This document shows positions 19,473-40,808 of a DNA stretch of 46,605 bases, in pieces. The notes beneath the pieces were generated by a model. It ran no database searches, was not told the origin of the DNA, and saw only the letters and a list, made by a program, of their open reading frames with translations. The stretch's first letter is position 1. Every line of letters begins with the position of its first letter. Both the position numbers and the translations under genes were made by a program. Origin of the DNA: Bacteroidales bacterium (GTDB lineage Bacteria; Bacteroidota; Bacteroidia; Bacteroidales; UBA932); NCBI GenBank assembly GCA_017438265.1, contig JAFRVZ010000006.1, positions 1-46,605 on the forward strand. The letters are read 5' to 3'.

Positions 19473-19524
19473 CAGCCGTCTATTGTTCTGAAAAGGATTG
19501 TTTTTATGCTCTGACAAGGAAAAA

Positions 19525-20901: not shown

Positions 20902-20903
20902 CC

Positions 20904-23953: not shown

Positions 23954-23961
23954 GATTGATT

Positions 23962-25194
23962 ATGAGTGGATCGTTGCTGATCAAGAACGGAACGGTTGTC
24001 CGCCCCGAAGGTACCTGCAAGGCCGATGTGGCCGTGCTGGACGGCCGTGTGGCGTGGATCGGGGCCGGGTCGGACTTCCGGCCGGACCGGGTCTTCGACG
24101 CCGCCGGCTGCGCCGTCGGGCCGGCCCTTGCCGATGTCCATGTCCATTTCCGCGTCCCCGGCAATCCCGAAAAGGAGACGATCGCGACGGGGACGGCGGC
24201 CGCGGCCCGCGGCGGCTATACGGTCGTCTGCGCGATGCCGAACCTGGACCCCGTGCCGGATTCCCCGGCGCACCTGGCGGTCGAGCAGGCGCTCATCGAC
24301 CGGGAGGCCCTGATCGACGTGCGGCCGTACGCCGCGATCACCGAAGGCCGCGCCGGCCGGAAGCTGGTCGATTTCGCGGCCCTTAAGGACCGCTGTGCGG
24401 CTTTTTCGGACGACGGAAGCGGCGTGCAGGACGATGCGGTGATGGAAGAGGCGATGCGGCGGGTGGCCGCCTGCGGCGGCATCCTTGCGGCCCACTGCGA
24501 GGACAATTCCTACCTCGGCGGCAGTTACCTGGCGATTCCGGCGGAGAGTGAATGGAAGCAGGTCGAACGGGACCTCGTGCTCGCGGAGCGGACCGGCTGC
24601 CATTACCACGTCTGCCATATTTCGACGAAGGAGAGCGTTCGCCTCATCCGGGCGGCCAAGGCCCGCGGGGTCCGCGTGACCTGCGAGACGGCGCCCCACT
24701 ACCTGCTGCTGACGGCGGCGGACCGCCGCGACGAGGGACGCTTCAAGATGAACCCGCCCCTGCGGGACGAGGAAGACCGCCGTGCGCTGGTGGAAGGCCT
24801 GCTGGACGGGACGATCGATATGATTGCGACGGACCATGCGCCCCACACGGCGGAGCAGAAGTCCCGCGGACTGGAGGGGAGCGCGATGGGCATCGTGGGG
24901 CTGGAAACGGCCTTCCCGCTGCTCTATACCGGCCTTGTACTGCCGGGAATCCTGTCGCTGGAGCGGCTCTGGGACCTGATGTCCGGCAGCCCGCGCCGCG
25001 TCTTCGGCCTCGGCGGAGCGCTGGAGCCGGGCGCAGCGGCCGACATCGCGGTCTTCGACCTCGGCCGCGCCTATGCGGTCGACAGCGCCGCCTTCGCCTC
25101 CAAGGGCAAGTCGACCCCGTTCGAGGGTTGGACGGTCCGCGGCGGCTGTGTACTTACGGTTTTTAAAGGTAAAACAGTATATGCCCAAGATTAA
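23962..25194 (+). CDS. pyrC: Dihydroorotase
   Basis: The 410-aa class I dihydroorotase (third step of UMP synthesis, cyclising carbamoyl aspartate) shows metal-binding HVHFRVPG near residues 58-65, a probable further His ligand in AHCEDNS, CHISTKES near 217-224, and the substrate/metal motifs KMNPPLRDEEDRRAL and IATDHAPHT. The ATG at 23962 is preferred to a TTG two codons upstream. The start lies 8 nt after the attenuator-like terminator. It is the first gene of the 17-gene operon and overlaps carA by 14 bp. Complete and normal in length. Confidence 0.93.
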   Translation: MSGSLLIKNGTVVRPEGTCKADVAVLDGRVAWIGAGSDFRPDRVFDAAGCAVGPALADVHVHFRVPGNPEKETIATGTAAAARGGYTVVCAMPNLDPVPDSPAHLAVEQALIDREALIDVRPYAAITEGRAGRKLVDFAALKDRCAAFSDDGSGVQDDAVMEEAMRRVAACGGILAAHCEDNSYLGGSYLAIPAESEWKQVERDLVLAERTGCHYHVCHISTKESVRLIRAAKARGVRVTCETAPHYLLLTAADRRDEGRFKMNPPLRDEEDRRALVEGLLDGTIDMIATDHAPHTAEQKSRGLEGSAMGIVGLETAFPLLYTGLVLPGILSLERLWDLMSGSPRRVFGLGGALEPGAAADIAVFDLGRAYAVDSAAFASKGKSTPFEGWTVRGGCVLTVFKGKTVYAQD

Positions 25195-26260
25195 ATCGAG
25201 AAAACTGGTGTTGGACTGCGGCCTGGAATTCCCCGGCGCCGGCTACGGCGCCTCCGGGAACGCGGTCGGAGAAATCGTGTTCAACACCGCGGTGGAAGGG
25301 TACCAGGAGATTCTCTCGGACCCTGCCTATGCCGGCCAGATCGTCGTGATGACCTATCCGACCATCGGCCATTACGGCATCACGGACGAAGATTATGAAA
25401 GCCGCACCCTCGCCCTGGCGGGCCTGGTCGTGCGCGAGTGCTGCGAGACTCCGAGCAACTTCCGCTTCACGCGGACCCTGCCGGAGGAACTGGAGGAGCA
25501 CGCGATCCCGTGCCTCGCCGGCGTGGATACCCGGATGATCACGGCGCTGGTCCGCGACGGCCGCTGCCGCCGCGCGGCCCTCGTGGACGCCGACATGCCG
25601 CTCAAGGAGGCCCTGGACCTCATCGCGGACACGCCGGAGCCCCGCGACCTCGTTGCCCGGACGAGCTGCGCCAAGCGCTGGTTCTCCCGCACGCCGCACC
25701 ACAGTTACGACGTCGTCGCCGTCGACTGCGGCATCAAGCACAGCGTCATCACCGCCCTGAACGACCGCGGCTGCAACGTCACCGTCGTGCCCTTCAACAC
25801 GCCGGTCGAGGACGTGCTCGCCTTCAAACCGGACGGCGTGCTGGTCTCCGGCGGCCCCGGCAGTCCGGCGGACCTGCCGCAGGTCGTGGCGCTCATAAGC
25901 GCGCTCCGCGGGCGGATTCCGCTCGCCGGCGTCTCGCTCGGCCACCTGCTCGTCGCCAGCGCCTTCGGCGCCCGCGTCGAGCGCCTGCCCCACGGCCACC
26001 ACGGCGGCCGTGCCGTCCGCGCCGCGGAAAGCGGCCGGATCTTCATGACCGAGCAGAACCACGGCTGGGCCGTGGATGCCGCGTCCCTGCCCGGGACGGG
26101 CCTGGAGATTACCCACACGGACGTCCAGGACGGCAGCGTGGAAGGTCTCCGCTGCTCTTCGGAGAAGGTCTTCTCCGTCCAGTATTATCCGGAAGGCGCC
26201 CCCGGCCCGCGGGACGGGATTTCCTTCTACGACGATTTCGTAACCCTCATGAGCCAGTAA
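25181..26260 (+). CDS. carA: Carbamoyl-phosphate synthase small subunit with inactivated glutaminase site
   Basis: The 359-aa protein has both CarA domains: the N-terminal domain (GYGASGNAVGEIVFNTAVEG, ETPSNFR, GVDTRMIT) and a class I glutamine amidotransferase domain from about 180. The catalytic triad is broken. The nucleophile motif GICLGHQ reads GVSLGHL, so Cys is Ser252 (codon TCG at 25934) and Gln is Leu256. The His of VQFHPEASPGP is Tyr336 (VQYYPEGAPGP). The Glu (338), GHHGG and QNHG are kept. Vertebrate CPS I likewise has Ser for this Cys and uses ammonia. The frame is intact and not decayed. The ATG at 25181 is supported by the conserved N-terminus. I infer a structural subunit for an ammonia-dependent CarB. 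Confidence 0.9.
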   Translation: MPKIKSRKLVLDCGLEFPGAGYGASGNAVGEIVFNTAVEGYQEILSDPAYAGQIVVMTYPTIGHYGITDEDYESRTLALAGLVVRECCETPSNFRFTRTLPEELEEHAIPCLAGVDTRMITALVRDGRCRRAALVDADMPLKEALDLIADTPEPRDLVARTSCAKRWFSRTPHHSYDVVAVDCGIKHSVITALNDRGCNVTVVPFNTPVEDVLAFKPDGVLVSGGPGSPADLPQVVALISALRGRIPLAGVSLGHLLVASAFGARVERLPHGHHGGRAVRAAESGRIFMTEQNHGWAVDAASLPGTGLEITHTDVQDGSVEGLRCSSEKVFSVQYYPEGAPGPRDGISFYDDFVTLMSQ

Positions 26261-26263
26261 GTT

Positions 26264-29200
26264 ATGCCGCGCAGGACAGATATCAAGAAAGTGATGGTCA
26301 TCGGCTCCGGCCCGATCGTGATCGGACAGGCCGCCGAATTCGACTATGCAGGCACCCAGGCCTGTATCGCCCTCAAGGAAGAGGGCTATGAGGTTATCCT
26401 CGTCAACTCCAATCCGGCGACGATCATGACCGACACCCATATGGCCGACAAGGTCTATATGGAACCGCTCAAACTGGAATACATCGCCAAGATCATCCGC
26501 TACGAGCGTCCGGACGCCCTCGTCCCGGGCCTCGGCGGCCAGACCGGCCTGAACCTCGCCGTCCAGCTCGCCAAAAAGGGCGTTCTCGACGAGTGCCACG
26601 TCGAAATCCTCGGAACCTCCTTCCAGAGCATCGAGCAGGCCGAGGACCGCGAGCTCTTCAAGGAGCTCTGCCTCAGCCTCGGTGAGCCCGTCATCCCCTC
26701 CGAGACGGTTTACAGCATCGAGGAGGCGGTCCGCGTCGCCGGGGAGATCGGCTACCCGGTCGTCCTCCGCCCGGCCTTCACGCTCGGCGGCACCGGCGGC
26801 GGCTTCGCCGACAACGAAGAGGAGCTGCGCGACCATATGCGCAACGCCCTCGCCCTGTCCCCGGTCCACCAGGTCCTCGTCGAGAAGAGCATCAAGGGCT
26901 ACAAGGAGATTGAATTCGAGGTCATGCGCGACCACAACGACACCGCCATCGCCATCTGCTCGATGGAGAACGTCGATCCGGTCGGCATCCATACCGGCGA
27001 CTCGATCGTCGTCGCCCCGAGCCAGACCCTGACGGACAAGGAGTACCAGCTCCTGCGCGACAGCGCCCTCAAGATGATCCGCGCCCTGAAGATCGAAGGC
27101 GGCTGCAACATCCAGTTCGCCATCGACCCGCTCTCCTTTACCTACTACATCATCGAGGTCAACCCCCGCGTCTCCCGCTCCTCGGCCCTCGCCTCGAAGG
27201 CCAGCGGTTTCCCGATCGCCCGCGTGACCGCGAAGATCGCCGTCGGCCTGACGCTGGACGAGATCCTCCTGGACGGCCATCCCGCCGCCTTCGAGCCCTC
27301 GCTGGACTACGTCGTCGCGAAATTCGCCCGCTTCCCGTTCGACAAGTTCGGCGAAGCCTCGAACGAGCTCGGCACGCAGATGAAGGCGACCGGCGAGGTG
27401 ATGAGCATCGGCCGCACCCTCGAGGAAAGCTTCCTCAAGGCGGTCCGCTCCCTGGAGATCGGCGTCTGCCACATCCACAAGAAGAAGTTCGACGCCTGCA
27501 GCGCCGACGAACTCCTCGCCTATATCTCCAAGGGTACCGACGACCGGATCTTCGCCATCGCGCAGCTGATGCGCCTCGGCGTCGACGTCTCCCTGATCTA
27601 CGACCGGACGAAGGTCGACATGCTCTTCCTGGAGACCCTCCTGCGGATCGTCCGCTTCGAGGCGGTCCTCGCCGCCCACCCGGGCGAGCTGGATTGCCTC
27701 CGGGAGGCCAAGCGCCTGGGATTCAGCGACGAGGAGATCGGCCGCCTGTGGAAGCGCAGCTCCGAGGACATCACCCGCCTGCGCCTGGACGAGGCGATCC
27801 TGCCCGTCTACAAGATCATCGACTGCTGCGCCGGCGAGAACCCGTCCGACGTCCCGTATTTCTATTCGAGCTACGAGCAGGAGAACGAATCGGTCCCGTC
27901 CGACCGGAAGAAGATCCTCGTGCTGGGCTCCGGCCCGATCCGCATCGGCCAGGGCGTCGAGTTCGACTACTCGACCGTCCACGCCATCTGGGCGATCCGC
28001 GAGGCCGGCTACGAAGCCATCATCATCAACAACAACCCCGAGACCGTCTCGACGGACTACACCGTCTCCGACAAGCTCTACTTCGAGCCGCTGACGGTCG
28101 AGGACGTGATGAACGTCATCACGCTCGAGAAACCCGCCGGGGTGATCGTGAGCCTGGGCGGCCAGACCGCCATCAACCTTGCCGGCCCGCTCGCGCGCTT
28201 CGGCATCCCCATCATCGGCACCGGCATCGAAGCCATCGACAATGCCGAGGACCGCAAGATCTTCGAGTCCATCATGCGCCGCATCGGCATCCCCCAGCCG
28301 GAGGCGCGCGCCGTCACTGCGATCGAGGAAGGCGTCGCCGCGGCCGCGGCGATCGGCTATCCCGTGCTCGTCCGCCCGAGTTTCGTGCTCGGCGGCCGTG
28401 CGATGATGATCGTCTCCAACGAGGAGAACCTCCGCCACTACCTCCAGAACGCCGTGGAAATCAACGAGAATTCCCCGGTCCTGGTCGACAAGTATATCCG
28501 GGGCAAGGAGATCGAGGTCGACGCGATCTGCGACGGCCGCGACGTCTTCATCCCCGGCATCATGGAGCACGTCGAACGCACCGGTATCCACTCCGGCGAC
28601 TCGATCAGCGTCTACCCGACCTTCAGCATCTCCGACGAGGTCAAGAAGCTCGTCGCCGACTATACGGTCAAGCTGGGCCTCGAGGTCGGCATCGTCGGCC
28701 TCTTCAACATCCAGTTCATCGTCGAGAACGACAGCAAGGTCTATGTCATCGAGGTGAATCCGCGCTCGTCGCGCACCGTGCCCTTCCTGTCGAAGTCCAC
28801 GGGCGTGCCGATGGCCCGCATCGCGACGCGTGTGATGCTCGGCGAGTCGCTGCGCGACCAGGGGATCACGCAGGTCTACCTGCCGGAGCGCAAGCGTCAT
28901 TTCGTCAAGACGCCGGCCTTCTCCTTCGGCAAGATCAAGGGCGTCGATTCCTACCTTTCCCCCGAGATGAAATCGACGGGCGAGGCGATCGGCTACGACG
29001 ATTCCCTGACGCGCGCGCTCTACAAGTCCCTGCAGGCTTCCGGAATGAACGTCGTGAACTACGGAACGGTCCTCGTGACGATCGCCGACGCCGACAAACC
29101 GAAGGCGCTGCCGCTCGTGCGCCGGTTCTACAACCTCGGATTCAACATCGAGGCGACGCGCGGCACGGCGGTCTACCTGCGGGAGAACGGCATCCGCACG

Positions 29201-29461
29201 CGCATGCTGAAGAAGATCAGCGAGGGCAGCGACGACATCTGCGCCTCGCTCCGCAAGGGCCACGTCAACTACGTGATCAACACGATCGACCTGGACCAGC
29301 GCAGCACCCACCTGGACGGCTATGAGATCCGCCGCACCGCCGTGGAGAACAACGTGACGATCTTCACGTCGCTTGAGACCGTGCGCGTGCTGCTCGACGT
29401 CCTGGAAGAGATTACCCTCGGCATCTCCACGATCGATGCCGAATACAAGGACAACGCGTAA
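26264..29461 (+). CDS. carB: Carbamoyl-phosphate synthase large subunit
   Basis: The 1,065-aa protein makes carbamoyl phosphate from bicarbonate, ATP and ammonia. It has two homologous ATP-grasp halves: the first starts KVMVIGSGPIVIGQAAEFDY with VVLRPAFTLGGTGGGF, the second KILVLGSGPIRIGQGVEFDY with VLVRPSFVLGGRAM. The oligomerisation domain lies between, and a C-terminal MGS-like domain (from about 935) ends at DAEYKDNA. Both ends and all ATP-grasp blocks look intact, in contrast to the partner CarA glutaminase. It starts 3 bp after carA and its stop overlaps pyrK by 1 nt. The MGS domain may bind nucleotide effectors; I cannot predict which. Confidence 0.95.
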   Translation: MPRRTDIKKVMVIGSGPIVIGQAAEFDYAGTQACIALKEEGYEVILVNSNPATIMTDTHMADKVYMEPLKLEYIAKIIRYERPDALVPGLGGQTGLNLAVQLAKKGVLDECHVEILGTSFQSIEQAEDRELFKELCLSLGEPVIPSETVYSIEEAVRVAGEIGYPVVLRPAFTLGGTGGGFADNEEELRDHMRNALALSPVHQVLVEKSIKGYKEIEFEVMRDHNDTAIAICSMENVDPVGIHTGDSIVVAPSQTLTDKEYQLLRDSALKMIRALKIEGGCNIQFAIDPLSFTYYIIEVNPRVSRSSALASKASGFPIARVTAKIAVGLTLDEILLDGHPAAFEPSLDYVVAKFARFPFDKFGEASNELGTQMKATGEVMSIGRTLEESFLKAVRSLEIGVCHIHKKKFDACSADELLAYISKGTDDRIFAIAQLMRLGVDVSLIYDRTKVDMLFLETLLRIVRFEAVLAAHPGELDCLREAKRLGFSDEEIGRLWKRSSEDITRLRLDEAILPVYKIIDCCAGENPSDVPYFYSSYEQENESVPSDRKKILVLGSGPIRIGQGVEFDYSTVHAIWAIREAGYEAIIINNNPETVSTDYTVSDKLYFEPLTVEDVMNVITLEKPAGVIVSLGGQTAINLAGPLARFGIPIIGTGIEAIDNAEDRKIFESIMRRIGIPQPEARAVTAIEEGVAAAAAIGYPVLVRPSFVLGGRAMMIVSNEENLRHYLQNAVEINENSPVLVDKYIRGKEIEVDAICDGRDVFIPGIMEHVERTGIHSGDSISVYPTFSISDEVKKLVADYTVKLGLEVGIVGLFNIQFIVENDSKVYVIEVNPRSSRTVPFLSKSTGVPMARIATRVMLGESLRDQGITQVYLPERKRHFVKTPAFSFGKIKGVDSYLSPEMKSTGEAIGYDDSLTRALYKSLQASGMNVVNYGTVLVTIADADKPKALPLVRRFYNLGFNIEATRGTAVYLRENGIRTRMLKKISEGSDDICASLRKGHVNYVINTIDLDQRSTHLDGYEIRRTAVENNVTIFTSLETVRVLLDVLEEITLGISTIDAEYKDNA

Positions 29462-30207
29462 TGAAACAGGGAACGTTCACAATCCTGGACAATGCGCGCC
29501 TCGCGCGGGACACTTTCCGGATGGTGCTGGAAGGGGACTGCTCCGCGGTGACGGGGAGCGGCCAGTTCGTCCAGGTCTCCGTCCCGGGGCTGTACCTGCG
29601 GCGTCCGTTCTCCGTCAGCGACCGCGACGGGGACCGGATCGTCCTGGTGTACAAGCAGGTCGGGAAGGGGACGGCCGCAATGGCCGCAATGGCTCCGGGA
29701 GGGACGCTGGACCTGGTGACCGGGCTCGGGCGCGGTTTTGACGTCGCGGCGGCCGGAGAGCGCTCCCTGCTTGTCGGCGGCAGCGTCGGCACGGCGCCGC
29801 TGCTCCTGCTCGCCCGGGAGCTGCAGGCCGCCGGGAAGGCGTTCGACGTGGCGCTGGGCTTCGGCGACGCCGGCCTGGCTTTCTATGTCCAGGAATTCAA
29901 GGCGCTGGGTGCGCAGGTGAAGGTTGCCACGCAGGACGGCTCGCTGGGCCGCGAAGGGCTGGTGACCGACGCCATCCGCGCGCTGGACGGCACCTATGAC
30001 TATTTTTATTGCTGCGGGTCGAAGGTGATGATGCGCGTCGTCAGCGAGGCGCTGCCCTTCGCCGGAGAGTGCAGCATGGAGGAACGGATGGGCTGCGGCA
30101 CCGGCATCTGCTACGGCTGCTCGATTCCGACGACGGCGGGCATGCGCCGCGTCTGCGCCGACGGCCCGGTATTCCGCAAGGAGGAAATCGTATGGGAAAG
30201 GATCTGA
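29461..30207 (+). CDS. pyrK: Dihydroorotate dehydrogenase B electron-transfer subunit
   Basis: The 248-aa FAD and [2Fe-2S] protein passes electrons from PyrD to NAD. The N-terminal ferredoxin-reductase-like FAD domain has LYLRRPFSVSD. The NAD domain has LLVGGSVGTAPLLLLA near 101-116. The cluster Cys residues are in ERMGCGTGICYGC and RRVCADGPVF near the C-terminus, as in Lactococcus PyrK. Its ATG shares a base with the carB stop (TAATG), and its 3' end overlaps pyrD by 16 bp. Its presence marks the PyrD as class 1B. Confidence 0.92.
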   Translation: MKQGTFTILDNARLARDTFRMVLEGDCSAVTGSGQFVQVSVPGLYLRRPFSVSDRDGDRIVLVYKQVGKGTAAMAAMAPGGTLDLVTGLGRGFDVAAAGERSLLVGGSVGTAPLLLLARELQAAGKAFDVALGFGDAGLAFYVQEFKALGAQVKVATQDGSLGREGLVTDAIRALDGTYDYFYCCGSKVMMRVVSEALPFAGECSMEERMGCGTGICYGCSIPTTAGMRRVCADGPVFRKEEIVWERI

Positions 30208-31103
30208 GCGTACGCGTCTGCGGGGTGAAACTCCGCAACCCGGTCATCCCGGCCAGCGGGACCTTCGGCTTCGGGCTGGAGGCCGCGGACTGGTTTGACC
30301 TGAACGTGCTGGGCGGCATCAGCCTGAAGGGGACGACCCTGGAGGCGCGTCCCGGGAATCCGACGCCGCGGATCGCCGAGTGTGCCGGGGGGATGCTGAA
30401 CGCCGTAGGCCTGCAGAATCCCGGCGTCGAAGCGCTCGTCGCCGAAAGGGTGCCGGCGCTCCGTGCGTGCTACGGCGGCGCCATTATCGCGAACATCAGC
30501 GGTTTCAGCGTCGAGGAGTACGCGCAGGCGTGCGCCGTCGCGGACCGCTGCGCGGACATCGACCTGATCGAGCTCAACGTCTCCTGCCCGAACGTGCGCC
30601 ACGGCGGCATGGCTTTCGGTACGGATCCGAAGAGCGCCGCGGCGGTGACGGAAGCCGTGAAGAATGCGACCCGCAAGCCCGTGCTCGTCAAGCTGAGCCC
30701 GAACGTGACCGACATCGTCGCCATCGCGCAGGCCTGCGCGGACGCGGGCGCCGACGGCCTCGTGCTGATCAACACGCTGCTCGGGATGCGGATCGACATC
30801 AAGACCCGCCGGCCGGTCCTTGCCAACACGACGGGCGGTTACTCCGGTCCGGGCGTGTTCCCGGTCGCCGTCCGGATGGTCTGGCAGGTCGCCCGGGCCT
30901 GCAGCATCCCGGTCGTCGGCTGCGGCGGCGTCGCCTCGGCGGAGGACGTGATTGAAATGATGATGGCCGGCGCGACGGCGGTCCAGGTCGGCTCGGAGAA
31001 CCTGCGCGACCCGCTGGCCTGCCCGCGGATCGTGGCGGAACTCCCGGAGGTGATGGACCGCCTCGGAATCGACAGTCTCAAGGATATAATCGGTATTGTA
31101 TGA
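30192..31103 (+). CDS. pyrD: Dihydroorotate dehydrogenase, class 1B catalytic subunit
   Basis: The 303-aa FMN barrel oxidises dihydroorotate to orotate. Family blocks are [13 protein letters not shown] near 16-28, [30 protein letters not shown] with catalytic Cys132, [18 protein letters not shown] and [12 protein letters not shown]. The frame stays open upstream to 30009, but the ATG at 30192 matches the conserved N-terminus and overlaps pyrK by only 16 bp. With pyrK it forms the NAD-dependent, quinone-independent enzyme expected of an anaerobe. Confidence 0.95.
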
Positions 31104-31813
31104 ACGGAAAGGATGTAATCATCGCCCTGGATTTCGAGAGCGCGGAGCGCGCCCTCGGCTTCCTCGACCTCTTCCAGGACCAGGAGCGGAAACCGTATGT
31201 GAAAATCGGCATGGAACTCTATTACGCGGCGGGACCCGACATCGTGCGGCGCGTCCGCGACCGCGGCCACCGCGTGTTCCTCGACCTCAAGCTCCACGAC
31301 ATCCCGACGACCGTCCGCCGCGCGATGCGGGTCCTGTCGGACCTCGGCGTCGACATGTGCAACGTCCACGCGGCCGGCACGGCGGCGATGATGGAGGCTG
31401 CCCGCGAAGGCCTGACCCGCCCGGACGGGACCTGCCCGCTGCTGCTCGCCGTGACGCAGCTGACCTCGACGGGGGAGGAGCGGATGCAGAAAGAACTGCT
31501 GATCGGCGCCAGCCTGCCCGAAACCATCGCCCATTACGCCGAAAACGCCCGTTCCGCGGGCCTGGACGGCGTCGTCTGCTCGCCCTGGGAGGCGGGGATC
31601 GTCAAGGAGGCCTGCGGGCCGCAGTTCCTGGCCGTGACGCCCGGCATCCGCTTCGCGGACGCCGCCGCGGACGACCAGGTCCGCATCGCGACCCCGGCCC
31701 GCGCCCGCGAGCTCGGCTCCGACTATATCGTCGTGGGCCGTCCCGTCACGGCCGCCGCGGATCCGGTGGCCGCCTATCTGAAATGTATGGAGGAATTTGT
31801 ATGGAACAAGTGA
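31100..31813 (+). CDS. pyrF: Orotidine 5'-phosphate decarboxylase
   Basis: The 237-aa TIM-barrel enzyme carries out the last UMP step. The catalytic Asp-Lys-Asp signature is [13 protein letters not shown] near residues 55-67. VIIALDFES starts the barrel. VTPGIRF and [14 protein letters not shown] bind phosphate. It overlaps pyrD by 4 nt (ATGA) and pyrE by 13 bp. Length is normal for the short bacterial family. Confidence 0.95.
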
Positions 31814-32409
31814 TTGCACACGAACTGTTGCGCATCGGGGCGGTGTTTCTCCGTCCCGAGGAACCGTTTACCTGGGCCAGCGGCATCAAGAGCCCGATTT
31901 ACTGCGACAACCGGCTGGTCCTCTCGGACCCGGCCGCCCGCAAGGTCGTCGAAGCGGCGATTGCGGAGACGGTGCAGCGGGAGTATCCCGGCTGCCGGAT
32001 GCTGATGGGGACCGCGACCGCCGGCATCGCCCATGCCGCCATTGCCGCCAGCCTGCTGGACCTGCCGATGGGCTACGTCCGCGGCTCCGCCAAGGGCCAC
32101 GGCCGTGAAAACCGCATCGAAGGCCGCCTGGAGCCCGGCTGCCCGGTGGTCGTCGTCGAAGACCTGATCTCGACCGGCGGCTCCGTGATCGACGTCGTCG
32201 AGGCGCTCCGCGAGGCCGGCGCCGAAGTGCTCGGCATCGTCAGCATCTTTACCTACGGCATCGCCCGCGGCCTGCAGCGGCTCTCGGACGCCTCCGTCCG
32301 GAACTGCTCCCTCTGCAGCCTCGACACCCTCGTCGAAGTCGCTGCCCTCGAATCCTACATCACCCCCGCCCAGAAGGAGGAAATCCTGCAATTCCGCAAC
32401 GGCTTATGA
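31801..32409 (+). CDS. pyrE: Orotate phosphoribosyltransferase
   Basis: The 202-aa enzyme adds PRPP ribose phosphate to orotate. Blocks are [16 protein letters not shown] near 22-37, [17 protein letters not shown] (flexible loop) and the PRPP motif [14 protein letters not shown] near 116-129. The start at 31801 lies within the pyrF end (GAATTTGT ATG). A frame opening at 31096 covers antiparallel-phase pyrF and is not real. It overlaps pyrB by 4 nt. Confidence 0.94.
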
Positions 32410-33485
32410 AACACCTGATCGACCCTTCCGACCTGACCAAGCGGGAGCTTGACGACATCATCTCCCTCGCCGAGCGCATCATCGCCGACCGCCGCGCCTG
32501 GAGCAACGCCCTGAAGGGCCGCAAGCTTGCGACGCTCTTCTATGAACCCAGCACCCGCACGCGCCTGAGCTTCACCGCCGCGATGATGGAACTCGGCGGC
32601 AACGTGCTCGGCTTCTCCGACGCCGCCAACAGCTCCGTGAGCAAGGGCGAGAGCGTGGAGGACACGGTCCGCGTCGTCGGCTGTTTCGCCGATATCATCG
32701 CGATGCGCCACAACCTGGAAGGCGCCCCCTTCGTCGCTTCCTGCTTCTCCGATGTCCCGATCATCAACGCCGGCGACGGCAGCCACAGCCACCCGACCCA
32801 GACCCTGACCGACCTGCTCACCATCACCCGCGAGATCGGCCACATCGACGGCATCACGATCGGTTTCTGCGGCGACCTCCGCTTCGGCCGCACGGTCCAC
32901 TCGCTGATCAAGGCCCTGACCAAGTACAGCGGCATCCGTATCGTGCTGATCGCCCCGGACGAACTCCGGCTCCCGGATTACATCAAGCACGACGTCCTCG
33001 ACAAGGAGGGGATGGATTACCGCGAGGTCCATACGATCGAGGAAGTCATCTCCGAACTGGACGTCCTCTACATGACCCGGGTCCAGCGCGAGCGCTTCCT
33101 GGACGAGGACGAGTTCGACCGCGTCAAGGACAGTTTCGTCCTCGACCTCGCGAAACTCTCCGGCGCGAAACCGGACATGGCCATCCTCCATCCGCTCCCG
33201 CGCGTGAACGAAATCCTGCCGGAGGTCGATGCCGACCCCCGCGCCGCCTATTTCCGCCAGGTCGAATACGGAAAGTTCGTCCGGATGGCGCTGATCTGCT
33301 GCCTCCTCCAGTGGAAGGACGATCCCGACCACGGGATGCCGCCCCTCGAAGGCGTCTTCGCGGATGCGACCCTTCGCTGCACCAATCCGAAATGCATCTG
33401 CAACCACGAGCACGTCGACCCGCTCTTCCGCAAGACCCCGGAAGGCGTGGTCCGCTGCCAGTACTGTGATTCCAAAATAAGATAA
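32406..33485 (+). CDS. pyrB: Aspartate carbamoyltransferase with fused PyrI-like zinc domain
   Basis: The 359-aa protein contains a complete catalytic ATCase: the carbamoyl phosphate site STRTR (49-53), SVSKGES, HPTQ near 138-141, [23 protein letters not shown] and HPLPRVNEI. After residue about 310 it adds a tail with Cys325, Cys330, Cys351 and Cys354 in the pattern CxxxxC-x20-CxxC. This is the zinc ribbon found at the C-terminus of the regulatory subunit PyrI. The nucleotide-binding part of PyrI is missing, and no pyrI lies in the operon. In E. coli this zinc domain is the catalytic-regulatory interface. Here it may stabilise the oligomer without CTP control. purE follows after 4 bp. Confidence 0.92.
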
Positions 33486-33489
33486 GCAT

Positions 33490-33957
33490 ATGAAAGTCAG
33501 TGTCATCATGGGCTCCGCAAGCGACTGGGAAGTCATGAAGCCCGCCTGCGATACCCTCGAACAGTTCGGGGTCCCTTACGAGAAGAAAGTCCTGAGCGCC
33601 CACCGTACGCCCCGGGAATTCTCCGATTTCATTGCCACGGCCCGGGAGCGGGGCGTGGGCGCCGTGATCGCCGGCGCGGGCGGCGCCGCCCACCTCGCCG
33701 GGATGGCCGCCGCGATGACGACCCTGCCGGTCATCGGCGTCCCCGTCCGCAGCAAGGCCCTGAGCGGGCTGGATTCGCTGCTCTCGATGGTCCAGATGCC
33801 TTCCGGCATCCCGGTGGCGACCGTCGCCATCGACGGCGCGAAGAACGCCGCGCTGATCGCGGTCAGCATCTTCGCCCTCACGGACGCTGACCTTGCCGAT
33901 AAACTTGAAGCCTTCCGCCGGGCCCAGGCGGAGAAAGTCCTGGCATCCCAGATTTGA
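33490..33957 (+). CDS. purE: PurE, AIR carboxylation (N5-CAIR mutase type)
   Basis: The 155-aa protein has the PurE hallmarks: [12 protein letters not shown] at 5-16 (phosphate binding), SAHRTP near 37-42 and [12 protein letters not shown] near 58-69. It converts AIR, or N5-CAIR if PurK is available, into CAIR. No purK is in this window, so whether it works as N5-CAIR mutase with a distant PurK is open. It links the pyr and pur gene blocks with gaps of 4 bp before and 1 bp after. Confidence 0.92.
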
Positions 33958-33958
33958 T

Positions 33959-36900
33959 ATGACGCAGACCAGAAGAATATTCGTAGAGAAGAATCCGGCC
34001 TTCCGCGTCGAAGCGGAAAGCCTGCGCAGCGAGTTCAACGAGAACCTCTCACTGGACCTCAAGACCCTGCGCTACCTGAATGTGTATGACCTCCGGGGCT
34101 TCAGCGACGAGCTCCTCGAAGCCTGCCGCTACGGCGTCTTCGGGGAAGTCGTGACCGACACCGTGACCGATTCCTTCCCGCTTGAAGGCCGCCGCTACCT
34201 GGCCGTGGAGTACATTCCGGGCCAGTTCGACCAGCGGGCCTCCTCCGCCGTCGACTGCGTCCACCTGATCGACCCGGCCGCCGACGTGCGCGTCAAGAGC
34301 GCCCGCCTGCTCGTCTTCGACGACGACCTTTCGGACGCGGACCTGGAGAAGATCCGCCACTATTACATCAACGTGGTCGAAAGCCGCGAAAAGGACCTTT
34401 CGAAGCTCGATTTCAGCGAGCAGGCGGACGTCAAGCCGTTGGCCGACATGACGGGCTTCACGGCGATGGAGGAGCAGGACCTGGCGCCGTTCTGCAAGGC
34501 CTGGGGCCTCGCGATGAACACGGACGACCTGCGCGAAGTGGTCCGCTACTTCCGTACGGAAGGCCGTGAGCCCACGGAAACCGAGCTCCGCATCCTCGAT
34601 ACCTACTGGAGCGACCACTGCCGCCACACGACCTTTACGACCCGCCTCGAAAGCGTCAGCGTCGAGGATTCCTTCCTGCGCGACGAGCTCGAGGGGACCC
34701 TCCGCGAACTCGACCGCGTCCGTGTCGAGCTCGGCCGCCGCGACCGCAGCCTCTGCCTGATGGAGATCGCGACGATCGGCGCGCGCTACCTGCGCACGAC
34801 CGGCCGGCTGGACAACCTCGAGCAGAGCGAGGAGAATAACGCCTGCAGCATCTTCGTCGACGTCGATGTCGACGGGAAGACCGAGCGCTGGCTCCTCCAG
34901 TTCAAGAACGAGACCCACAACCATCCGACCGAAATCGAGCCCTTCGGCGGCGCCTCGACCTGCCTCGGCGGCGCCATCCGCGACCCGCTCTCCGGCCGCG
35001 CCTACGTCTACCAGGCGATGCGCGTGACCGGTGCCGGCGATATCTGGAAGCCGGTTGCCGAGACGCTGCCCGGCAAGCTGCCGCAGCGTGTCATCAGCCG
35101 CAAGGCCGCGGCCGGCTACTCCAGCTACGGCAACCAGGTCGGCCTGGCGACGACCCACGTGCGCGAAATCTTCCATCCCGGCTACACGGCCAAGCGCCTC
35201 GAAGTCGGCGCCGTCGTCGGCGCCGTCAAGGCGGAGAACGTACGCCGGGAGAGCCCCGCGCCGGGCGACGTGATCCTGCTGCTCGGCGGCCGGACCGGCC
35301 GTGACGGCATCGGCGGCGCGACCGGTTCCTCCAAGGAACACACCGAGGCCTCCCTGGAGACCTGCGGCAGCGAGGTCCAGAAGGGCAACGCCCCCGAAGA
35401 GCGCAAGATCCAGCGCCTCTTCCGCCGCCCGGAAGTGACCCGCCTCATCAAGAAATCCAACGACTTCGGCGCGGGCGGCGTCAGCGTCGCCATCGGCGAG
35501 CTGGCCGACGGTCTCGACATCTGGCTGGACCGCGTCCCGACCAAGTATTCCGGCCTCAATCCGACCGAACTCGCAATCAGCGAGTCCCAGGAGCGGATGG
35601 CCGTCGTCGTCGAAGCGAAGGACCGCGCCGCGTTCGAGCGCTGGTGCGCCCTCGACAACATCGAGGTGACCCACGTCGCCGACGTGACGGACCGCGGCCG
35701 GATGCGGATGTTCTACCACGGTGCGACCGTGGCGGACCTCGCCCGGAGCTTCATCGACAGCGCCGGCGCCCCGCACTTCTCCTCCGCCTGCATCGCCGCG
35801 GTCGAGGACCGCGACCCGTTCGTACAGGAGCCGGAAGGGGAGACCCTCGAAGCCCGCTTCCGCAGCGTCCTGCGCAGCCCGAACGTGACTTCCCAGAAGG
35901 GCCTGATCGAGAACTTCGATTCGACCATCGGCCGTTCCACGGTCCTGATGCCGTTCGGCGGCCGCCTCCAGGCTTCCGAGACCCAGGTCTCGGTCCAGAA
36001 ACTGCCCGTGGACGGCTATACCGACACGTCCAGCATGATGGCCTTCGGCTACAACCCGTACCTTGCTTCCTGGAGCCCGTACCACGGCGCCGCCTATGCC
36101 GTGGTCGAAGCCTGCACCAAGCTCGTCGCCGCCGGCGCCGACTGGTCCGGGATGCGTTTCTCCTACCAGGAATACTTCGAGCGGATGAGCGCCGATCCCC
36201 GCAGCTGGGGCAAGCCGCTGTCCGCCCTGCTCGGCGCGCTGAAGATGCAGCTCGCGCTCGGCCTTCCGTCCATCGGCGGCAAGGACTCGATGAGCGGCAC
36301 CTTCGAGGACATCAACGTCCCGCCGACCCTGATCGCCTTCGGCATCAACACGGTCGGCGCCTCCCAGGTCATCTCGACCGACTTCAAGCAGCCCGGCGAC
36401 CGGATCTACCTCGTCCGCCATACCCCGCTTCCCAACCGGATGCCGGATACGGACCGGCTGAAGGAGAACTGGAACGCCGTCCTGAACGCCATCCGCGCCG
36501 GCAAGGTCTGCGCCGGCTGGTCCGTCGGCTTCGGCGGCGTCGCCGAGGCCCTCGCCAAGATGGCCTTCGGCAACCGCCTCGGCGTCGAGGTGAATGTCGG
36601 CGAGCGCGATCTCTTCGCGCTGAACTACGGCTCCATCGTCCTCGAATCCTCCGAGGCCCTCACCGACCCCGGCTTCGAGCTGCTGGGCTATGTCACCGAC
36701 GGCCGTTTCGTCGTGAACGGCCAGGACATGCCGCTGGAAAGCCTCCAGGAGGCCTGCGAGATTCCTTTCTCGAAGGTCTATCCCGCCCGCGTGCCCGCCG
36801 CCAGCGAGGCGATGCTGCCGACGCCGGCCGAAACTCCGGCGGCCGTGACCTACCATGGACCGAAGGTGGAGTGTCCGGTCGTTTACCTGCCGGTCTTCCC

Positions 36901-37678
36901 GGGCACGAACTGCGACTATGACACGGCGAAAGCCGTCCGCTGCGCCGGCGCCGAGGTCCGCATCCACGTTTTCCGCAACCTGACGGAAGCGGACGTGAAC
37001 CGCTCCATCGACGAGATGGCGGAACACCTCGCCCAGTGCCACATCCTCGCGCTCTGCGGCGGCTTCTCCGCCGGCGACGAGCCGGACGGCAGCGGCAAGT
37101 TCATCGCCACGGTCCTCCGCAACGCCCGCGTCAGCGCCGCCGTCAAGGCCCTGCTGGCCCGCGAAGGCCTCGTCCTCGGCATCTGCAACGGCTTCCAGGC
37201 CCTCCTCAAGAGCGGCTTCCTGCCGTATGGCGACCCGGACAAGCTGACGGCAGATTCGCCGACCATCTTCCGCAACGACATCAACCGCCACGTCTCCCAG
37301 ATGGTCACGACCGCCGTCGCCTCGACGGCCTCCCCGTGGCTGGCGGGCTTCCGCCCGGGCGACCTCCATACGATCGCCGTGAGCCACGGCGAGGGCAAGG
37401 TCGTCGTCAGCGAGGCGGAGGCGCGCGGCCTCTTCGCCCGCGGCCAGGTGGCCTTCCGCTATGCCGATCCGGTCTCCGGCGAGCCGACGATGGCTTCGCC
37501 CGCCAACCCGAACGGCTCCTGCTACGCCATCGAGGGCCTGCTGAGCCCCGACGGCCGCATCCTCGGCAAGATGGGCCACACCGAACGCTATGAAACGAAC
37601 CTTTTCAAGAACATCGCAGGCACGAAGGAACAGACCCTGTTCACGAATGCCGTTAACTACTTCAAACAAGGGAAATGA
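33959..37678 (+). CDS. purL: Phosphoribosylformylglycinamidine synthase, single-chain form
   Basis: The 1,239-aa FGAM synthase contains the N-terminal PurS-like part, two AIR-synthetase-like halves (TYWSDHCRHTTF near 217-228, KNETHNHPTEIEPFGGAST as two adjacent blocks, IGGKDSMSGTF) and a C-terminal glutaminase from about 970. That domain has an intact triad candidate: Cys1076 in GICNGFQ and His/Glu in MGHTERY. It therefore remains glutamine-dependent, unlike CarA and PurF in this operon. The ATG at 33959 gives the expected start (MTQTRRIFVEKNP); an upstream ATG inside purE is rejected. It overlaps purC by 4 bp. Confidence 0.95.
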   Translation: MTQTRRIFVEKNPAFRVEAESLRSEFNENLSLDLKTLRYLNVYDLRGFSDELLEACRYGVFGEVVTDTVTDSFPLEGRRYLAVEYIPGQFDQRASSAVDCVHLIDPAADVRVKSARLLVFDDDLSDADLEKIRHYYINVVESREKDLSKLDFSEQADVKPLADMTGFTAMEEQDLAPFCKAWGLAMNTDDLREVVRYFRTEGREPTETELRILDTYWSDHCRHTTFTTRLESVSVEDSFLRDELEGTLRELDRVRVELGRRDRSLCLMEIATIGARYLRTTGRLDNLEQSEENNACSIFVDVDVDGKTERWLLQFKNETHNHPTEIEPFGGASTCLGGAIRDPLSGRAYVYQAMRVTGAGDIWKPVAETLPGKLPQRVISRKAAAGYSSYGNQVGLATTHVREIFHPGYTAKRLEVGAVVGAVKAENVRRESPAPGDVILLLGGRTGRDGIGGATGSSKEHTEASLETCGSEVQKGNAPEERKIQRLFRRPEVTRLIKKSNDFGAGGVSVAIGELADGLDIWLDRVPTKYSGLNPTELAISESQERMAVVVEAKDRAAFERWCALDNIEVTHVADVTDRGRMRMFYHGATVADLARSFIDSAGAPHFSSACIAAVEDRDPFVQEPEGETLEARFRSVLRSPNVTSQKGLIENFDSTIGRSTVLMPFGGRLQASETQVSVQKLPVDGYTDTSSMMAFGYNPYLASWSPYHGAAYAVVEACTKLVAAGADWSGMRFSYQEYFERMSADPRSWGKPLSALLGALKMQLALGLPSIGGKDSMSGTFEDINVPPTLIAFGINTVGASQVISTDFKQPGDRIYLVRHTPLPNRMPDTDRLKENWNAVLNAIRAGKVCAGWSVGFGGVAEALAKMAFGNRLGVEVNVGERDLFALNYGSIVLESSEALTDPGFELLGYVTDGRFVVNGQDMPLESLQEACEIPFSKVYPARVPAASEAMLPTPAETPAAVTYHGPKVECPVVYLPVFPGTNCDYDTAKAVRCAGAEVRIHVFRNLTEADVNRSIDEMAEHLAQCHILALCGGFSAGDEPDGSGKFIATVLRNARVSAAVKALLAREGLVLGICNGFQALLKSGFLPYGDPDKLTADSPTIFRNDINRHVSQMVTTAVASTASPWLAGFRPGDLHTIAVSHGEGKVVVSEAEARGLFARGQVAFRYADPVSGEPTMASPANPNGSCYAIEGLLSPDGRILGKMGHTERYETNLFKNIAGTKEQTLFTNAVNYFKQGK

Positions 37679-38403
37679 ACCAGATTGAGAAGAGAGAACT
37701 CCTGTTCGACGGCAACGAAAAGCAGATTTTCGCGACCGACCAGCCGGATAAGGTCATCATCCATTACAAAGATGTGACCACCGCCTACGGCGGCATCAAG
37801 CGCGCCCGCTTCAAGGGAATCGGGTGCCTGAACAACAAGATTTCCGCCATCCTTTTCACGGAACTGGAGAAGGCGGGCCTCGAGACCCATTTCCTCGGCC
37901 TGGTGGGGGAGCGTGAGCAGCTCTGCCGCCGGATTGCCTGGGTCGACCTGGTCGCCGTCTGCCACAACCGGGTCGTCGGCAGCCTGGCCCACCGCCTCGG
38001 CGTCGAGGAAGGCTACACCCCCGGAAACACCATCGTCGACCTGCGCTACAACACCGACGAGCTCGGCAATCCGCTGATCAACGACGACCAGGCGGTCGCC
38101 ATCGGCCTCGTCAGCTACGACGAGCTGAAGTACATCTACGCCACGGTCCACAAGGCCAACGAAGTGCTGACGGAACTCTTCCGCAAGGCCGGCATCAGCC
38201 TGGTCGACTTCAAGATGGAGTTCGGCCGCGTGCCGGAGGACGGCCACCTCATCATCTCCGACGAGCTCAGCCCGGACCGCTGCCGGCTCTGGGACCTCGA
38301 GACGGGAGAGCAGTTCGACAAGGACCGCTTCCGCCACGACCTCGGAGACATCTATCAGGGTTATGAAATCGTGTTGAACCGCCTGGAAGGCAAAAAGGAC
38401 TGA
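37675..38403 (+). CDS. purC: SAICAR synthetase
   Basis: The 242-aa enzyme joins aspartate to CAIR. Recognisable blocks are KRELLFDGNEKQIF (phosphate-loop region), DVTTAYGGIKRARFKGIG (product-binding region, altered from the usual D-x-SA-F), VDFKMEFGR near 182-190 and LIISDELSPDRCRLWD near 197-212. It overlaps purL by 4 nt and precedes purF by 4 bp. Length is typical of the bacterial enzyme. Confidence 0.92.
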   Translation: MNQIEKRELLFDGNEKQIFATDQPDKVIIHYKDVTTAYGGIKRARFKGIGCLNNKISAILFTELEKAGLETHFLGLVGEREQLCRRIAWVDLVAVCHNRVVGSLAHRLGVEEGYTPGNTIVDLRYNTDELGNPLINDDQAVAIGLVSYDELKYIYATVHKANEVLTELFRKAGISLVDFKMEFGRVPEDGHLIISDELSPDRCRLWDLETGEQFDKDRFRHDLGDIYQGYEIVLNRLEGKKD

Positions 38404-38407
38404 TACT

Positions 38408-39772
38408 ATGGGAGTTATAGCTGTATATGGAGTTGAGGGCGCGGCCCGGGTCATGTATTCCGGCCTGCATATGCTGCAGCACCGCGGCCAGGAAGGCGCC
38501 GGCATGGTCGTCTTCGACCAGGGCGGAAAAGGCGTCCACCACCGGGGTCTCGGCCTCGTCAGCGAAGTCTTCGGACATTCGCCCTTCCTGAAGCAGGAGG
38601 GGAGCATCGGCATCGGCGGCACGCAGTACGCCAACGCCGCCAAGGGCGGACTGGACAACGTCCAGCCGCTGTTCTTCCAGCACAAGTCCGGCGATTTCGC
38701 CGTCGCCGGAGACGGCAACCTGGTCAACTACCGCCAGATCAAAGACTACCTCGAGAACCGGGGATCCATTTTCCATACGTCGACCGACGCGGAGCTGCTC
38801 GCGAACCTGATCAAGAAGACGAGCAGCGAGGCGCGCATCTACCACATCGTCTGCGCCCTCAATATGATGGAAGGCGGTTTTGCCTTCGTCATCCTGACGA
38901 AGAACCGCATCTACGCCTGCCGTGACAAATACGGCATCAAGCCGCTCTGCATCGGCCGCCTCGGCAACGGCTATGTCGTCGCCAGCGAGAGCTGCGCCTT
39001 CGACTACATCGGTGCGACGATGCTGCGCGACGTCGCCCCGGGCGAGGTCGTGACCATCGACGACCATGGCCTCCGCTCGCGCCAGTATTCGAAATTCCAG
39101 CGCCGGATGATGTGCGGCATGGAGTACATCTACCTTGCCCGCCCGGACAGCGACATCGACGGCTGCAACGTCCACGCCTTCCGCAAGGAATCCGGACGCC
39201 GCCTCTACCGCGAGCAGCCGGCCGAGGCCGACATTGTGGTCGGCGTGCCGGACTCCAGCCTCAGCGCCGCGATCGGCTACGCCGAGGAGAGCGGCATCCC
39301 GTACGAGATGGGCCTTGTCAAGAACCGCTACGTGGCCCGCACCTTCATCATGCCGGTCCAGGAGGACCGCATGCGGGTGGTCCACCTCAAGCTTTCCGCG
39401 GTCCGCAGCATCGTGAGCGGCAAGCGCATCGTGATGGTGGACGACTCGATCGTGCGCGGCACGACATCCCTCCAGATCGTGAACCTGCTCCGGGAAGCGG
39501 GCGCCAAGGAAGTCCACGTGCGCATCGCCAGCCCGATGATGAAGCATCCCTGCTACTACGGCGTCGACACCCCGACCGAGGAGGAGCTCCTCTGCTCCCA
39601 CCGCGACCTCGAGGAGGCCCGCAAGGCCATCGGCGCCGACTCGCTCGGCTACCTGAGCTGCGAAGGCGCGGTCGCCTCCAGCTTCGGCTGCTCGGATCTC
39701 TGCCTCGCCTGCTTCAACGGCAATTATCCGACGGCCCTCTACCAGATGGAATATGAACAAGACGAAGAATAA
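38408..39772 (+). CDS. purF: Amidophosphoribosyltransferase lacking the glutaminase cysteine
   Basis: The 454-aa protein aligns with B. subtilis-type PurF along its length: [17 protein letters not shown] (17-33), [34 protein letters not shown], and the PRPP loop [13 protein letters not shown]. [4Fe-4S] ligand Cys candidates are kept in [15 protein letters not shown] and CSDLCLACF. The Ntn glutaminase is altered: MGVIAVYG replaces the processed CGVxGIxG, so the catalytic N-terminal Cys is absent and no propeptide is seen. The conserved Arg of VRYATAG is Gln73, and the Asn of HNGNL is Asp102. Asp127 is kept. The enzyme probably makes phosphoribosylamine from PRPP and free ammonia. No upstream in-frame start restores a Cys. 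Confidence 0.9.
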
Positions 39773-39776
39773 GAGT

Positions 39777-40808
39777 ATGGCAAAAACCTACGAAAAAGCG
39801 GGAGTGAATCTCGAGGCGGGATACGAAGTGGTCCGCCGGATCAAGCAGCACGTCGCCTCCACGGCCCGGAAGGGCTCGATGGGCGGTATCGGCTCCTTCG
39901 GGGGCATGTTCGACCTTTCGGCGCTCGGCATCCGCGAGCCGGTCCTGGTCAGCGGCACCGACGGCGTCGGCACGAAGCTCAAGATCGCCTTCGCGATGGA
40001 CAAGCACGACACGATCGGCATCGACGCCGTCGCGATGTGCGTCAACGACGTTCTTGCGCAGGGCGCGGAGCCGCTCATTTTCCTGGATTATGTCGCGATC
40101 GGCCACAATGTTCCCGAGAAGGTCGAGGCGATCGTGAAGGGCGTCGCGGAAGGATGCCGCCAGGCGGGCTGCGCCCTTGTGGGCGGCGAGACCGCCGAGA
40201 TGCCGGGCATGTACGGCGGGGGAGAGTATGACATCGCCGGCTACACGACCGGCGTGGTCGAGAAATCCCGCCTGATCGACGGCAGCAAGGTCAAGGCCGG
40301 CGACATGCTCGTCGGCATCGCTTCGACGGGCGTCCACTCCAACGGCTTCAGCCTGGTCCGCAAGATTGTCGCGGACGCCGGACTCAGCTATACGGACAAG
40401 GTTCCCGAATTCGGCGGCGCGACCCTCGGCGAGACCCTGCTGACCCCGACGCGCATCTATGTCCGGCAGGTGCTGGACGTGATCCGGCAGTGCGACGTCC
40501 ACGCCATCGCCCACATCACGGGCGGCGGTTTCGACGAGAACATCCCGCGCGTGCTGCACGACGGCCAGGGCATCGAGGTGGAGGAAGGAACCTGGGAGAT
40601 CCTCCCGGTCTTCCGGATGCTCGAGCGCTGGGGCGGCGTCCCGCACCGGGAGATGTTCAACATCTTCAACATGGGCATCGGCATGGTCGTGGTCCTCGAT
40701 CCCGCGGAAGCGCAGAAAGCCATCGCCATCCTGGCGTCCCACGGCGAGAAGGCTTCCGTCATCGGCCGCGTGACCGACGTCCCCGGCGTCAACATCGTCC
40801 TGCAGTGA
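39777..40808 (+). CDS. purM: Phosphoribosylformylglycinamidine cyclo-ligase (AIR synthetase)
   Basis: The 343-aa enzyme closes the imidazole ring. Blocks are [15 protein letters not shown] at the N-terminus, [14 protein letters not shown] near 60-73, [20 protein letters not shown] as two adjacent parts, [12 protein letters not shown] near 136-147 and [15 protein letters not shown]. The ATG at 39777 (MAKTYEKAG) is preferred; an ATG at 39753 inside purF would add eight residues. It overlaps purN by 4 nt. Confidence 0.94.

Follow-up and report, generated by a model that had tools for sequence, protein, structure and literature searches.

Can a bacterium draw the nitrogen for the entry steps of both pyrimidine and purine synthesis directly from free ammonia, which would be a surprise for bacteria? 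The question is raised by a 46,605-nucleotide contig of a Bacteroidales bacterium (GenBank assembly GCA_017438265.1, contig JAFRVZ010000006.1; the whole stretch is referred to here as the window), in which 17 genes, pyrC-carA-carB-pyrK-pyrD-pyrF-pyrE-pyrB-purE-purL-purC-purF-purM-purN-purH-purD-folD, lie on a single strand, with no overlap or gap between neighbours exceeding 19 bp. The nitrogen-entry enzymes encoded in this run are carbamoyl phosphate synthetase (CPS), formed by CarA1 and CarB1, and PurF. The synthetic sites of CarB and PurF take ammonia, and in glutamine-dependent relatives the glutaminase part delivers this ammonia through a channel. An initial annotation, made from the sequence alone, held that the glutaminase sites of CarA and PurF, encoded in one operon, are both broken, that PurL of the same operon is intact, that the acceptor sites of both affected enzymes can take free ammonia, and that together these features look like one metabolic shift towards ammonia. 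Its statements on residues and gene order proved correct, and we propose that the pyr-pur operon probably encodes ammonia-dependent forms of both nitrogen-entry enzymes. The reading as a whole is nonetheless only partly supported, as the history of the two losses is more complex than a single shift. The source is a metagenome assembly of 1.74 Mb in 75 contigs, 88% complete; its assignment to the order Bacteroidales was taken from named relatives of its PurF, the closest of which (94% identity) belongs to the metagenome-assembled genome (MAG) Bacteroidales bacterium Bact_14.

Glutaminase sites of CarA1 and PurF

Aligned with Escherichia coli CarA, CarA1 of the window has Ser for Cys269, Leu for Gln273 and Tyr for His353, with Glu355 kept. 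The protein is a full-length match above the TIGR01368 cut-off, yet lacks the required Cys269 and His353. All 18 rows of the CarA1 clade, the window included, are broken, in differing ways: six combine Gly269 with His or Gln at 353, and 12 combine Tyr353 with Cys, Ser, Gly, Ala or Asn at 269. The ratio of glutaminase to N-domain distances is 1.33 in 17 CarA1 rows versus 0.77 in 45 intact CarA sequences, such that the glutaminase part is the more conserved part of intact CarA and the less conserved part of CarA1. On the CarA tree, from which incomplete rows were excluded, the broken and intact states require four changes. Arginine-type CarA is intact in 55 of 60 readable family genomes (21 of 24 chosen by score and 34 of 36 further genomes), the breaks falling in genomes G416, G426, G436, G377 and G298; it is also broken in G318 and G514, which have a Cys-less PurF of the window type. 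In the later CarA sample, two of 39 stretches (L381, L382) were on the wrong strand and were not counted, and G325, present in both samples, was counted once.

In PurF of the window, the start Met occupies the position of Cys1. Ten codons separate this start from the next upstream in-frame stop and none of them encodes Cys, so we rejected a misplaced start. At E. coli positions 71, 73, 100 and 101, PurF has Gly, Gln, Gly and Asp for His, Arg, His and Asn; Gly102 and Asp127 are kept. The protein is a full-length match above the TIGR01134 cut-off, with the PRPP loop and transferase domain but without the Cys1 and Asn101 that mark a working glutaminase, and its best solved relatives over the full length are the Bacillus subtilis-type structures 1ao0 and 1gph. 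Cys1 is missing from all 48 relatives with a visible PurF start (two of 50 loci are cut), including the Bact_14 protein. In a wider alignment, in which identical duplicates were merged and fragments L056, L057 and L233 show no N-terminus, all 54 rows of window-type PurF (window included) lack Cys1 and Asn101, and they form one clade with support of 100 in a tree of rows of at least 400 aa. Cys1, Arg73, Asn101, Gly102 and Asp127 are present in every one of the 54 intact rows other than E. coli.

Further changes in the Cys-less clade are concentrated around the same pocket. Columns that are at least 97% kept in 32 near intact relatives and at most 10% kept in window-type PurF are 71, 76, 100, 101, 126 and 315; we take positions 71, 76, 100, 101 and 126 to lie in or beside the glutamine site. 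Position 71 is Ser in 38 of the 54 rows and otherwise Asn, Gly, Thr or Ala; position 73 is Lys, Gln, Arg, Met or Ala; and position 100 is Gly, Ala, Asn, Ser or Cys. Position 101 carries an acidic residue in every row (Asp in 37, Glu in 17), which may be a sign of a new use, perhaps the capture of ammonium. The glutaminase-to-transferase distance ratio is 1.50 in the window-type clade, compared with 1.06 in the 32 near intact relatives and 1.17 in the 54 intact rows. Mean pairwise identity of the transferase part is 77% in window-type PurF versus 73% in the near intact relatives, in clades whose depths are not matched.

A second, divergent group of short PurF proteins, starting MGGxFG or MSGFFG (L074-L088, L314-L335, L337, L340), is Cys-less in all 39 members sampled (15 + 24) across Bacteroidales. 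These proteins are only about 30% identical to window PurF and form a separate clade, and Cys1 was therefore lost at least twice; some of the genomes also carry a long PurF with Cys. Cys1 of PurF has been lost more widely within our sample than the CarA site has. All long PurF sequences that were read (10 + 5) keep Cys1. We rejected the assumption that every TIGR01134 match of 570-700 aa is a long PurF, since those with MCGIVGYIG-like starts are GlmS-like (three, plus one partial read); unread matches in this size range were assigned by match position on the profile.

The losses do not extend to glutamine use in general. PurL of the same run has Cys1076, His1207 and Glu1209, and the other class-I amidotransferases matched by Pfam model in the window genome keep Cys and His: a second CarA (CarA2), encoded downstream of argH and intact, and three proteins named by eye, GuaA, HisH and a peptidase-C26-like protein. 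With four other class-I sites and PurL retaining these residues, we rejected a genome-wide loss of glutamine use. GlmS, CTP synthase and AsnB were not found in the window assembly and hence do not serve as controls. The initial annotation had named additional intact copies, acting as the main enzymes, as a danger to its reading. One such copy exists for CarA, and no second PurF was found in the 88%-complete window assembly. Because the CarA encoded after argH is intact, the window organism has, as judged from its genes, not wholly given up glutamine for carbamoyl phosphate.

Retained synthetic sites and CarB without CarA

The synthetic parts of both enzymes are kept. CarB1 passes TIGR01369, and 17 of 18 checked active-site positions, which we take from E. 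coli work to represent both ATP-grasp active sites, are as in E. coli, with only site 754 differing. The same 17 positions are invariant in 46 CarB rows, 11 CarB-only rows among them; site 754 varies. Tunnel-gate residues C232, A251 and A314 are kept in window CarB1; A251 and A314 are invariant across CarB rows, and C232 is replaced by Ala in two of 11 CarB-only and three of 24 other CarB2 rows.

Several relatives lack carA altogether beside carB. At two loci, L279 (G509) and L282 (G516, Candidatus Equicola faecalis), pyrC is followed by carB within 20 bp with no carA, and at six others (L276, L277, L278, L283, L284, L285) argH is followed by carB within 60 bp, again with no carA. No CarA was found at an E-value of 1e-20 in G495, G499, G509, G515 or G516. 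On the CarB tree (45 rows), loss of carA corresponds to three events, and functional versus non-functional CarA to five. Residues that are invariant in 19 CarB2 proteins with an intact CarA are changed in clusters (e.g. 339-352 and 528-553) in eight arginine-type CarB-only proteins. This pattern fits the loss of a binding partner, the clusters presumably lying at the contact with CarA. The CarB alignment used matches of more than 900 positions and excluded L285. Separately, position 231 (E. coli numbering), beside the tunnel gate, is Ile in 12 of 12 CarB1 and in six of eight arginine-type CarB-only proteins (L275-L278, L283, L284); it is Val in 19 of 19 CarB2 with intact CarA and also in five CarB2 with dead CarA, and a link to CarA loss is unsure.

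From these residues, rather than from kinetics, we infer that both enzymes are active, that they have an affinity for ammonia and that ammonia is the donor. CarA1 would be a catalytically inactive partner of a functional CarB1, an arrangement known from mammalian CPS1, and PurF would use free ammonia and PRPP to form phosphoribosylamine. Replacing Cys1 by Ala or Ser leaves E. coli PurF active with ammonia (Mei and Zalkin, 1989, cited in PMC3261824; papers given by PMC number are cited for excerpts of their text), and ammonia can serve E. coli CarB for carbamoyl phosphate synthesis (PMC6245113). Together with the kept ammonia sites and the precedent of CPS1, these activities argue that the enzymes most likely use free ammonia, in line with what the initial annotation had proposed. 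Use of free ammonia as donor would suit life at high ammonia. By record title, 41 of the 50 named relatives originate from herbivore gut samples (rumen, horse, deer and others), a count uncorrected for sampling; four of these assignments rest on the species name, and "RUG" in a title presumably denotes rumen.

Each half of this arrangement has a known precedent. Human CPS1 has Ser in place of the catalytic Cys and takes in external ammonia (PMC4655335). Like CarA1, mammalian CPS1 keeps a dead glutaminase domain in which Ser replaces the catalytic Cys and Leu occupies the Gln273 position, and the mitochondrial CPS1 chain 6uel has both residues, with its His kept. CPS1 is one fused chain that needs N-acetylglutamate, whereas CarA1 and CarB1 are separate open reading frames (ORFs) of a bacterial pyrimidine operon and the His is replaced by Tyr; the window thus has the Cys replacement within a kept glutaminase domain and not the single fused chain. 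E. coli-type CarAB resembles the window proteins in domains, curated family scores and CarB active-site residues, and differs in having an unbroken Cys269-His353 pair and in that carA is missing in some relatives of the window. Window PurF shares the PRPP loop and transferase part with B. subtilis-type PurF (1ao0, 1gph), but has no Cys1 and has replacements at 71, 73, 76, 100 and 101. A PurF homologue with Ser for the N-terminal Cys, Mlab_0150, exists in Methanocorpusculum labreanum; it appears to be a recent extra copy that its authors suspected not to be a real PurF (PMC3261824), whereas the window type is a whole clade and often the sole PurF found. The divergent short PurF of Bacteroidales is likewise Cys-less, differing in its low identity, its separate clade and loss, and a glutaminase part that is not faster.

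Searching the open-access literature by titles and abstract openings, we found no description of the pairing of the two losses, of a Cys-less PurF in Bacteroidales or of a bacterial CarB without CarA, in agreement with the initial annotation, which knew of no system pairing them. In a review on where carbamoyl phosphate comes from, bacterial CPS is grouped with type II, which uses glutamine (PMC6022934). If our proposal is correct, a bacterial clade with a dead or missing CarA beside a conserved CarB would break the rule, stated in a review for E. coli, that glutamine is the relevant nitrogen donor. The CPS1 state would then have arisen a second time, in prokaryotes, and living intermediates that have lost the Cys, the His or the whole subunit would be available for comparison. 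Through the corresponding loss in PurF, nucleotide synthesis of gut bacteria would be linked directly to ammonia in their surroundings.

Fused CarA-CarB proteins also occur among these genomes. Single ORFs of about 1470-1490 aa with intact Cys and His are found in G486 (L163:8437-12837, minus strand), G375 (L164) and G505 (L238), and the best solved match of the G486 protein over its full length is mitochondrial CPS1. Fused bacterial CPS is already known (PMC6022934).

Association of the two losses and alternative explanations

Window-type Cys-less PurF occurs in 57 distinct genomes (of 58, with G502 and G318 treated as one because they are a single assembly), 22 of which also have an intact PurF and 35 of which do not. 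Fourteen of the 57 yielded no CarB at an E-value of 1e-40 and no CarA (G503, G513, G518, G520, G521, G522, G524, G525, G527, G528, G530, G531, G535, G537); G521 has only a short CarA remnant of 68 positions, counted as none. Among the 43 genomes with CarB, intact CarA is present in 18 of 18 that have an additional intact PurF. The other 25 comprise seven with intact CarA (window genome included), 13 with only broken CarA and five in which no CarA was found. Four proteins were counted as intact by hand: the CarA of G517 (split by a stop), of G493 (cut before His353) and of G512 (which retains Cys, His and Glu but not Gln273), and the second PurF of G538, which is split. The survey across genomes that the initial annotation called for therefore does show the two losses associated, with a Fisher p of 9e-7 when kinship is ignored. 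In a kinship-aware test on 41 of the 43 genomes, about five of nine independent pairs agree, none is opposed and about four show no difference (median p 0.06). In a family survey, CarA1 was found in six of 199 genomes, all within the eight that have Cys-less window-type PurF. CarA1 and Cys-less PurF share one neighbourhood in G375, G479, G486 and the window, so their co-occurrence is partly one inheritance. In G371 (96% complete) we saw only a dead CarA and only a Cys-less PurF.

A number of observations weigh against our proposal. The kinship-aware association has the same direction but is weak. The association is weaker in another comparison, of 22 family genomes whose PurF is of other types: intact CarA is present in 11 of 12 with intact PurF (whose Cys was read in six of the 12) versus six of 10 without (p 0.14). 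The twelfth genome, G298, combines a long, intact PurF with a broken CarA. CarA could be read in 19 genomes that have the divergent Cys-less PurF, and it is intact in 15 of them; together with G298, this led us to reject an absolute coupling of the losses. Since 22 of the 57 genomes also carry an intact PurF, the Cys-less copy there need not carry flux. The intact copies themselves are clustered in several genomes: L163:3211-12840 of G486 has, by Pfam, carA-carB, CTP synthase, type III glutamine synthetase and intact purF side by side; similar sets of glutamine enzymes occur in G496 and G500, and L235, L236 and L237 are, like L163, loci where CarA-CarB, CTP synthase and an intact PurF lie together with type III glutamine synthetase; G375 has carA-carB with purF and a glutamine synthetase-like gene; and G505 has carA-carB with CTP synthase and glutamine synthetase, and no purF. 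The association is therefore partly linkage of intact PurF and CarA. With respect to the enzymes, the E. coli CPS requires very high ammonia concentrations (PMC6245113), and the intact CarA2 of the window genome could in principle serve CarB1. The glutaminase part of the divergent short PurF is not faster (ratio 1.00), which does not fit simple decay. Lastly, PurF position 76 is also nearly constant in the window-type clade (Asn in 51 of 54 rows), and the constancy of position 101 may reflect ancestry rather than use.

We consider it unlikely, though worth serious attention, that these are two unrelated degradations with no common cause, in which glutamine use was unneeded at each step and the meeting of both in one operon is incidental. 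The numbers of events do differ, with PurF affected once in this clade and CarA several times, and both the short-PurF genomes (39 of 39 Cys-less, mostly with intact CarA) and the counterexample G298 would be expected if the losses were unconnected. However, among the 43 CarB genomes an additional intact PurF never occurs without an intact CarA (two CarA judged by hand), no independent pair runs in the opposite direction, and in the genomes of genus g196 that have lost His353 (G416, G426, G436) only Cys-less short PurF was seen. The losses are separate in number, and probably in time. The single metabolic shift of the initial annotation is too simple, because Cys1 of PurF was lost once in the clade and CarA failed several times, CarA2 is intact, the loss in PurF often accompanies an intact CarA and G298 is the reverse case. 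Instead, ammonia use at both steps would be a lineage trait reached stepwise, and in some cases the ammonia-type set would be accompanied by a distinct glutamine-dependent one that is intact (CarA-CarB, PyrG, type III glutamine synthetase and PurF).

It is improbable that Cys-less PurF and dead CarA are second, minor or regulatory copies, with flux carried by an intact set missed in incomplete assemblies. Such a division is conceivable where the intact PurF of the 22 genomes is accompanied by intact CarA, as in 18 of them, and the window assembly is incomplete; completeness figures are lacking for the 49 genomes reached via named loci. Nevertheless, a Cys-less PurF is the only one seen in the other 35 genomes, including G318 (95% complete), G371 and the closest relative, G490, and it is located in the main purine gene run and has a conserved transferase part.

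There is likewise little chance that glutamine is still the donor through a glutaminase acting in trans, with CarA2 or a free glutaminase feeding CarB1 and PurF. CarA2, PurL, GuaA and HisH of the window genome all retain Cys and His. However, CarB1 and CarB2 are only about 42% identical, five CarB genomes have no CarA that we could find and 13 have only a broken one, and the patchy change of CarB2-invariant residues in CarB-only lineages, at what we suppose is the CarA contact, is expected if no partner binds. Finally, an artefact of sequencing, assembly or start-codon choice is barely credible: the source is a metagenome assembly in many contigs and similar start-codon errors have been reported for archaeal PurF (PMC3261824), but the finding recurs at 48 loci from named MAGs, the codons directly upstream of the PurF start include a stop and no Cys, and several active-site residues are changed together.

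More tentatively, ammonia dependence could go further than we propose. Both nucleotide entry enzymes may be true ammonia enzymes working at physiological ammonium, with the dead glutamine pocket of PurF reused such that the invariably acidic position 101 captures ammonium and feeds the old channel. Some members (e.g. G371, G509 and G516, with no CarA found in the latter two) might then be without any remaining glutamine-dependent route to carbamoyl phosphate or phosphoribosylamine. We regard this extension as possible, but would not yet favour it.

The gene run and its surroundings

The features of the run are listed in Table 1. The joint pyr-pur operon is not conserved; in several relatives its halves are divergent or lie on separate contigs.

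Table 1. Genes of the pyr-pur run and selected codons, in window coordinates.
Feature	Position	Strand	Basis or remark
pyrC, dihydroorotase, first gene of run	23956..25194	+	ORF, named by eye; start codon not settled; directly precedes carA or carB in relatives
carA1, CPS small subunit, glutaminase site dead	25181..26260	+	TIGR01368, 364 bits (cut-off 307); residues
Former Cys269 codon of carA1, now Ser	25934..25936	+	
Former Gln273 codon of carA1, now Leu	25946..25948	+	
Former His353 codon of carA1, now Tyr	26186..26188	+	
carB1, large (synthetase) subunit	26264..29461	+	TIGR01369, 1445 bits (cut-off 1027)
pyrK, dihydroorotate dehydrogenase iron-sulfur subunit	29461..30207	+	PF10418
pyrD	30192..31103	+	PF01180
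pyrF	31100..31813	+	PF00215
pyrE	31801..32409	+	ORF, named by eye and position
pyrB, with C-terminal PyrI-type metal-binding domain in same ORF	32406..33485	+	PF02729, PF00185, PF02748
purE	33490..33957	+	PF00731
purL, internal control	33959..37678	+	TIGR01857, 1676 bits; Cys1076, His1207, Glu1209
purC	37675..38403	+	PF01259
purF, without Cys1	38408..39772	+	TIGR01134, 463 bits (cut-off 350); residues
Codon of E. coli Asn101 in purF, now Asp	38711..38713	+	
PRPP-binding loop of PurF, present	from 39437	+	
purM	39753..40808	+	TIGR00878
purN	40814..41365	+	PF00551; start codon not settled
purH	41362..42891	+	PF01808, PF02142; start inferred as ATG within longer ORF
purD	42895..44151	+	PF01071, PF02844, PF02843
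folD	44171..45040	+	PF00763, PF02882

Directly upstream of pyrC, at 19498-23805, are genes for an ABC transporter and a solute-binding protein, by eye of the polyamine type. In G405 (L161:14080-16272), pyrC is followed by pyrK with no carA or carB at that site, and the sole CarA-CarB of the genome, which is intact, is encoded elsewhere. A second SAICAR synthetase-like gene, with about 25% identity to purC of the window, adjoins purE at L159:1894-2517, L153:14576-15199 and L160:8023-8646; at L160, the interval from purL to purF yielded no other purC.

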